In this document: piece by piece, positions 44,462-52,403 of the stretch | Numbering within the stretch: the stretch's first letter is position 1 | Layout of the letters: each line of letters starts with the position of its first letter | NCBI GenBank assembly: GCA_002104935.1 | Contig: MCGT01000016.1 | Span: forward strand, 372,001 to 436,000 | DNA: 64,000 nucleotides | Direction: 5' to 3' | Origin: Hesseltinella vesiculosa | Taxonomy: Eukaryota > Mucoromycota > Mucoromycetes > Mucorales > Cunninghamellaceae | Program-made: the position numbers and the translations under genes | The notes under the pieces: generated by a model | Seen by the model: the letters and a program-made list of their open reading frames with translations, nothing else | Told to the model about the DNA's origin: nothing | Database searches by the model: none

Positions 44462-44535
44462 GTCTTCGTGGTGTAGTTGGTTATCACATGTGCTTCACAC
44501 GCACAAGGGCAAGAGTTCGAACCTCTTCGAAGACA
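44462..44535 (+). tRNA. tRNA-Val (CAC)
   Basis: A complete 74-nt cloverleaf without intron: acceptor stem GTCTTCG/CGAAGAC plus discriminator A, D arm GTGTAGTTGGTTATCAC, anticodon arm TGTGC-TTCACAC-GCACA with anticodon CAC, and T arm AAGAG-TTCGAAC-CTCTT. A T5 Pol III terminator follows at once. It decodes GTG. Confidence 0.97.
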
Positions 44536-51185: not shown

Positions 51186-52403
51186 TCAATGGTGCGACCA
51201 CAGCTGTTGCACGACTTGGTCTGCGTTAGGGGCTTTGGGCTACAAAAAAAAACCAGGTCAGAGGTAGACTCGTGTGGGCACTGCTGTTACTCTTGTAAAA
51301 CGGTGCTGGCGCAGAGATTCTGTATTTTTGGCGGAGTAATACAGAGCAATGGTCAGTTGGGTGCATTGATCGGGCTGGGTCATCCCAAGCAGCGGGATGA
51401 GATGTTGCTGGGCATGCTAAAAGGAAAGAAAGTCAGGTAAATTGGATGGGCTCAAAACGATATTACCGTGACGAGATCCTGGGTTTCTTTGTGAAAAGCA
51501 GATGATGCATCGGCCGTGGTGAGAAATCGATGGAGCGAGCGAGCCATGATTGGAAGGTGTCGGATGATGCTGGTGAGTTTCTAACACGCAATCCAAAAAA
51601 GGTAGGTGCCCGTTTTTTCTTTCTTTGCTGATCCTTACTGTCAAATAGGTTTCTGAGAAAATCAAAGGGTACGAAGGGGACAGCCGTTGGAGCAAGGTAG
51701 CCAAAGCATTTTCCAGGCAATTGGCAATGCGCGGGTCCAATCCACGAATGTCTTGCAACAATGTGTCCTGACGTGGAGAAGCAAAAAAAAAAAAAAGAGT
51801 CAAGGGTAAAGGCAGGTTTAGGGCTGGCAAAGGGTGAACATAGGGGCATGTAAAAAGGATATTATGCGTGTCCATGTTGATTTTGATCCAAAGAGACAAC
51901 AACTGGCCAAAAGGCAGTGCCTGACCAACCATGTATGACAATGGCGTGTTGACAAGCGAATTCTGAATGAAAAATTGGTGGCCTATAGAAATAAAAAGAG
52001 AAAGAGGAGGTAAGAAAGAATGGGACCACATGAGCTGACTTACAGCGATCCACCACGCCACGATGCCTGAAGCCAAAGTCTGTCATCACTTTGAACAGGA
52101 CTGGATCCATAATAGCAGGAGGCACATGATGATCTACGCCATTGACTTTGAAATCACAGTAAGAATGAGTCAAGGACAATGTTAAAGCCTTCATATGAAA
52201 ATGTTTATAATAAAGGATATGTGAATTTCCAAGTTGCCAGCGTGGAGAATGACCTCCATGTCATAGAGATCGAATGGACTGGCGTTGTCTTGGGAAAGTC
52301 GCAAATACTGGATACGTTGGGCACAGTGAATGGTGAGTTGGTGAGAAGGTATAGACTCATCTTGCAGTGATACCACCATGGAGCATTCCCGTTGAACTAT
52401 CAT
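51186..52403 (-). CDS. Unknown 281-aa protein with two AT-AC introns
   Basis: Seven exons (52403-52221, 52158-52044, 51982-51863, 51772-51639, 51580-51467, 51416-51291, 51239-51186) join in phase. Introns 1 and 3 start ATATCCTTT and end AC, the signature of minor-spliceosome AT-AC introns; the other four are GT..AG. The protein starts MIVQRECSMVVSLQDE and ends VVQQLWSHH. It looks soluble and alpha/beta in the first half (DLYDMEVILHAGNLEIH, CDFKVNGVDHHVPP) and helical in the second (LENALATLLQRLSPSYP, LTSIIRHLPIMARSLHRFL). I do not recognise the family. A distant likeness of the N-terminus to Mediator subunit 18 was considered but is too weak. If intron 3 is not spliced, the frame stays open and 30 residues are added. 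Confidence 0.7.
51773..51862 (-). other. Candidate U12-type AT-AC intron (intron 3 of the 281-aa gene)
   Basis: A 90-bp segment begins ATATCCTTT, contains ACCCTTGACTC (one mismatch to the U12 branch consensus), a T14 run, and ends CTTCTCCAC. The branch-to-acceptor distance is about 27 nt, longer than usual. Length is a multiple of three and the frame is open through it, so retention cannot be excluded from sequence alone; the retained residues would include a poly-Phe stretch. Confidence 0.6.
52159..52220 (-). other. U12-type AT-AC intron (intron 1 of the 281-aa gene)
   Basis: On the minus strand this 62-bp intron begins ATATCCTTT, has the branch element GTCCTTGACTC, and ends TTCTTAC. The branch A is 11 nt from the acceptor, the usual U12 spacing. 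No GT..AG pair gives a continuous frame here: unspliced reading stops within 12 codons, and removal joins LEIH to CDFKVNG in phase 0. Confidence 0.85.

Follow-up and report, generated by a model that had tools for sequence, protein, structure and literature searches.

Does an uncharacterised gene of Hesseltinella vesiculosa carry an intron that is removed by the minor spliceosome, or does the ordinary GT-AG intron drawn there by its public model, P0001, hold? AT-AC introns with a donor like the one at this locus are excised by the U11/U12-U4atac/U6atac spliceosome, which most fungi have lost and some Mucoromycotina keep. The sequence-only reading of this DNA had guessed at the latter lineage, and rightly so, as the species belongs to the Mucorales (Cunninghamellaceae); its genome comprises 27.05 Mb in 85 contigs, and the whole stretch analysed here, the window, covers 64 kb (C8:372001-436000). 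A 62-nt stretch of the gene is very probably a U12-type AT-AC intron removed by the minor spliceosome (U11, U12, U4atac/U6atac).

On the minus strand, positions 52220 to 52159 read ATATCCTTT..TCCTTGACTCATTCTTAC (Table 1), with a branch element TCCTTGAC(TC) whose branch A is separated from the intron end by 11 nt. The U12 consensus is given as /RTATCCTTT for the donor and UCCUUAACU for the branch (PMC2846911), and the optimum distance from branch to intron end in U12-type introns as 11-13 nt (PMC3584512). The donor has the form /RTATCCTTT, the branch, TCCTTGACT, differs from the consensus TCCTTAACT by one change, and donor and branch together equal the published consensus (PMC2846911) bar a G instead of an A preceding the branch A; moreover, the distance from branch to end is short and a distinct pyrimidine tract is lacking. 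Removal of the stretch joins ..HAGNLEIH to CDFKVNG.. and leaves the frame open up to the next intron (GTAAGT..CTATAG), while upon retention the first in-frame stop falls at intron nt 28-30, that is, at codon 10. The donor, the branch, the TTCTTAC end, the length of 62 bp and the 11-nt spacing that the sequence-only reading had described are thus all present; its claim that removal keeps the frame holds as well, and the stop that it expected within 12 codons of retained intron lies inside that limit.

Table 1. Features of the host gene and the two competing sets of intron boundaries (positions in the window)
Feature	Position	Strand	Remarks
Host gene exon 1	52221..52403	minus	starts at ATG 52403; last 33 nt are intron in P0001
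Predicted U12-type AT-AC intron	52220..52159	minus	62 nt, phase 0; based on motifs and frame
5' splice site ATATCCTTT	52212..52220	minus	
Branch region TTGTCCTTGACTCAT	52165..52179	minus	branch A at 52170
3' splice site TTCTTAC	52159..52165	minus	
Rival GT-AG intron of P0001, GTCATT..ATATGAAG	52189..52253	minus	65 nt
Host gene exon 2	52044..52158	minus	
Ordinary GT-AG intron, GTAAGT..CTATAG	51983..52043	minus	
Second U12-like intron, ATATCCTTTTT..CCCTTGACTC-T14-..CTCCAC	51773..51862	minus	90 nt, phase 1
GT-AG intron of P0001, GTTCAC..CGTCAG	51768..51839	minus	72 nt
Ordinary GT-AG intron	51581..51638	minus	
Ordinary GT-AG intron	51417..51466	minus	

The combination of signals is rare by chance in DNA of this composition. 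Specifically, the window contains the strict pattern RTATCCTTT..TCCTTRAC..YAS a single time, and none of 200 dinucleotide shuffles of the 64 kb contains it; a looser U12 pattern occurs twice, both times in the host gene, a number that no shuffle reached (0 of 200; mean 0.09). The element CCTTRACTC is found at two places in the window, one in each of the host gene's introns 52220..52159 and 51862..51773, and two of the four RTATCCTTT sites of the window lie in this gene. The loose pattern was absent from 63 other genome loci, partly overlapping and 190,409 bases in all, whose choice had not depended on the intron pattern. Across the genome, the gapped intron pattern was found at 11 places, corresponding to 10 distinct sites, against seven for the reversed pattern, so that the count on its own shows no clear excess; RTATCCTTT, TCCTTGACTC and an AC end occur together at three of the 10 distinct sites, the window intron among them.

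The other two sites lie in genes with conserved products. The AT-AC intron of prefoldin subunit 5 (C12:150996-151072, plus strand, L051) has the branch TCCTTGACTC and the junction LTSS/LYVPGK, and the spliced protein, its last exon left off, lines up gap-free across this junction with prefoldin subunit 5 of 7wu7 (E 5.2e-29). The AT-AC intron of GAA1 (C25:24940-25016, minus strand, L052) has the same branch and the junction LVFQ/SLALF; the spliced piece scores 109 bits with PF04114 over residues 2-108 and matches GAA1 in 9ub7 (E 7.1e-11), in an alignment that stops five residues past the junction. In both genes, removal of the AT-AC stretch restores conserved protein sequence. Among the remaining seven pattern sites, two (L050, L055) lie within a frame that is open over 480 nt. 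A further site on the minus strand (L054, C34:588100-588166) has ATATCCTTT, TCCTTGAC without the CTC extension, and an AC end.

The sequence-only reading had called for a search for the minor snRNAs, whose complete absence would have refuted it, and the outcome is in its favour, with U6atac and U11 retrieved above their Rfam cut-offs. U6atac (C5:77097-77235, minus strand) scores 56.3 bits against a cut-off of 33 and shows GAAAGGAGAGA and a terminal T run, and U11 (C12:1236213-1236394, minus strand) scores 62.3 bits against 39, starts with AAAAAGGGC and carries ATAATTTTTG and a strong 3' hairpin. The U4atac candidate (C12:1144452-1144578, minus strand) stays under its cut-off (39.9 bits against 53) and has an Sm site, AATTTTTG, and a 7-bp 3' hairpin (CATTCTC-TTTT-GAGAATG). 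Between its GUCCUUCUC and the GAGAAGGAC of U6atac a perfect 9-bp stem can form, and the duplex of the two RNAs reaches -30.7 kcal/mol, a value not attained in any of 500 shuffles of the 5' 25 nt of the U4atac candidate (mean -16.7, best -30.6).

The case for U12 is more delicate. Nothing was found at E<=0.001 in the first genome search, and a candidate (C65:16508-16645, minus strand; L031 489..626) emerged at 25.1 bits and E 0.07, under the Rfam cut-off of 53, as the only match to RF00007 at E<=10 among the 42 first-look candidates, out of 2559, for which scores were computed. It begins with UUGCCUCAAAUCAUGAGUAAGGAUAAU and its first 28 positions are near the consensus, unlike the remainder; its Sm site, AATTTTTTTTA, is unusual and includes a long T run. 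Near-matches to the U12 pattern ATGAGTAAGGAAAA are not enriched in the genome (22 against 50 for the backward control), and of the 22, the C65 site alone was recognised as U12 under the thresholds applied. The pattern AGTAAGG followed by an Sm site occurs at 13 places, as does its backward control, with no U12 match among them, and the pairing of the candidate with U6atac is no better than chance (109 of 1000 shuffles as low). In basal fungi, U12 is described with an atrophied third stem and a short last stem (PMC4133162), a description that fits the low Rfam score of this candidate.

Two proteins of the minor spliceosome are also encoded. Removal of two GT-AG introns from the 25K gene gives a protein of 128 aa that scores 70.4 bits with PF18036 and matches 25K in 8r7n (8r7n_B; E 1.3e-11). 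The 35K locus on C67 is 63% identical over 80 residues to human 35K; the C67 protein scores 99.2 bits to 35K vs 57.2 bits to the best U1-70K chain, and the best genome match to U1-70K is a different locus. For the zinc finger of U11-48K, the best score was 15.7 bits, under the cut-off of 21.1, in a test that is weak given a model of 25 positions. The gene content of the genome supports the earlier proposal of a working minor spliceosome through U11, U6atac, 25K and 35K.

Two other accounts of the locus have to be weighed. The protein of P0001 reads ..LYDME/ALTLSLTHSYCDFKV.., exactly as a major-class GT-AG splice from 52253 to 52189 would produce it, and the U12-like motifs would then be accidental, an explanation that is improbable. 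It would leave the donor, the branch, their spacing and the AC end jointly unexplained (0 of 200 shuffles), and its acceptor is an AAG without a pyrimidine tract that scores -2.68 vs 3.41 to 6.14 for the gene's other acceptors, a penalty partly built in by a matrix trained on YAG ends only; all five GT-AG introns removed from the prefoldin 5 and 25K genes end in YAG. Its donor, GTCATT, cannot be called poor: a rough self-trained matrix gives it 3.89, the 45th lowest of 154 values. Little weight attaches to the scores of these U2 matrices, given that the one self-trained on 154 introns had drifted to a nearly flat donor and the one built from introns with just one candidate acceptor or donor yielded noise. 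Codon usage also speaks modestly against P0001 at the disputed junction: the 33 nt spliced out in P0001 are coding-like at 0.44, and the 30 nt retained in their place reach -0.05, which falls between the 5th and 25th percentiles of coding sequence. Coding stretches as long as the discarded one have a median of 0.26 and a 75th percentile of 0.39, and off-frame stretches a median of 0.04 and a 95th percentile of 0.42; the remaining part of exon 1 scores just 0.10, which makes the test a modest one. A gene finder restricted to GT-AG introns would presumably be forced into a model like P0001, and these observations suggest that the public model is wrong at the AT-AC intron, such introns not having been allowed for.

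That the AT-AC intron is real and is nonetheless removed by the major spliceosome, like a few AT-AC introns, draws on the fact that AT-AC ends do not by themselves define U12-type introns (PMC3584512). It is exceedingly improbable here in view of a donor and a branch that match the U12 consensus (PMC2846911), except for the G preceding the branch A, of a branch distance within the 11-13 nt optimum (PMC3584512) and of the minor snRNA genes in the genome.

For the U12-type reading, base pairing outlines how excision may proceed. The TCCTTT of the donor (52212..52220) can form base pairs with two snRNA elements, the AAAGGG of the U11 5' end and the AAAGGA of U6atac, and the window branch forms 14 base pairs with one bulge with the U12 candidate. 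When 99 distinct CCTTRAC sites in the retrieved DNA were ranked by the energy of pairing with this candidate, the window, prefoldin 5 and GAA1 branches took ranks 1, 2 and 4, rank 3 went to an unrelated site in L035 and rank 17 to the branch of intron 51862..51773; part of the ranked DNA was chosen by the intron pattern, and the ranks therefore count as support, not as proof. At the place where AAGGAA stands in the Rfam consensus, the candidate reads AAGGAU, and the base opposite is A, A or G, not T, in the three clear introns, which hints at a joint change of branch and U12. Expression, particle assembly and splicing itself are modelled here on the mechanism known from animals. On this model, U11 would pair first with the donor TCCTTT through its 5' end (AAAAAGGGC), and U12 would base-pair around the branch point, with TTGTCCTTG(A)CTCAT, so that a single purine bulges out. 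U6atac, brought in paired to U4atac, would then take the place of U11 at the donor (AAAGGA on TCCTTT), and cleavage at the AT and AC ends would release the intron and leave the two exons joined in phase 0 (..NLEIH/CDFKV..).

A second U12-like intron of the host gene presents, in order from 51862, ATATCCTTTTT, CCCTTGACTC, T14 and GCTTCTCCAC. It has a U12 donor and a CCTTGACTC branch; it departs from the short branch-to-end distance and the lack of a tract, its branch A lying 27 nt from the end and T14 being present. Excision as AT-AC keeps the frame, and full retention also leaves the frame open; the alternative of P0001, with a GT 23 nt inside and an AG 5 nt beyond the AT-AC ends, keeps the frame as well. 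The intron is possibly a U12-to-U2 switch in progress, and either spliceosome might process it, with two protein products of which one is six residues longer than the other. One described route of such conversion is the activation of a nearby U2 donor (PMC3584512), and a U12 AT-AC intron of Trichinella moved by three codons on becoming U2-type in C. elegans (PMC2846911), a shift similar to that between the two overlapping readings of 51862..51768. In the Trichinella and C. elegans case (PMC2846911) the change is seen between species, whereas in H. vesiculosa a single intron carries the signals of both classes, which would be a direct test case for the conversion of U12-type to U2-type introns. 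The joint proposal that the host gene has two minor introns, the second of them between the two machines, together with the hint of a common change of branch and U12, is tentative and rather doubtful. The donors of the prefoldin 5 intron (L051) and of window 51862..51847 (minus strand) have 16 letters in common, ATATCCTTTTTACATG, a match that extends past the nine letters of the consensus.

Rhizopus oryzae and Phycomyces blakesleeanus are also Mucorales. In these species, ESTs identified one and 8-9 AT-AC introns, respectively (PMC2846911, Table 2), with the donor and branch consensus and the few introns per genome that are also seen in H. vesiculosa. They differ in having GT-AG U12 introns too (PMC2846911), whereas the strict pattern returned three AT-AC introns and no convincing GT-AG intron in H. 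vesiculosa. In Lichtheimia corymbifera, four of the five RNAs of AT-AC splicing are reported; U4atac went undetected in Lichtheimia and is given as one copy in other basal fungi (PMC4133162), and in H. vesiculosa it is represented by a candidate. Rhizophagus irregularis has minor introns, all four snRNAs and the proteins 20K, 65K, 35K and 25K (PMC10639083), and its 205 minor introns (PMC10639083) contrast with at least three in H. vesiculosa, a lower bound set by the strict pattern. A literature search on introns in H. vesiculosa brought up only papers about 6mA methylation in plants; the main text of PMC10639083 does not name the genus, and its data tables may include the species. Minor splicing is already reported in Mucorales, and the intron described here adds to a known class. 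H. vesiculosa is one more fungus in which a set of minor-spliceosome genes can be recognised, and it seems to maintain a complete second splicing apparatus for a small number of introns.

The 274-aa protein model of the host gene has one relative among 525 candidates, P0001 (H. vesiculosa DM01DRAFT_1374661), which is the same gene; P0001 is eight residues shorter at the start, has two different splice junctions and another 3' end, and is identical in between. Searches of Pfam, PDB sequences and proteins returned nothing beyond the host gene, and the 525 candidates held no homologue from another species, so that the AT-AC junction cannot be checked against relatives. The predicted fold of P0001, built without relatives, is poor (mean pLDDT 42.1). 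The idea of a likeness to Mediator subunit 18 found no support, though it is not disproved either: PF09637 gave no candidate in the genome, nor in the control genomes. Divergently from the host gene, a neighbour with an S4 domain extends from 52595 onward on the plus strand and probably encodes a mitochondrial ribosomal protein. Lastly, a tRNA gene at 44462..44535 (plus strand, 64.6 bits) is the sole Rfam match in the window above the family cut-off.
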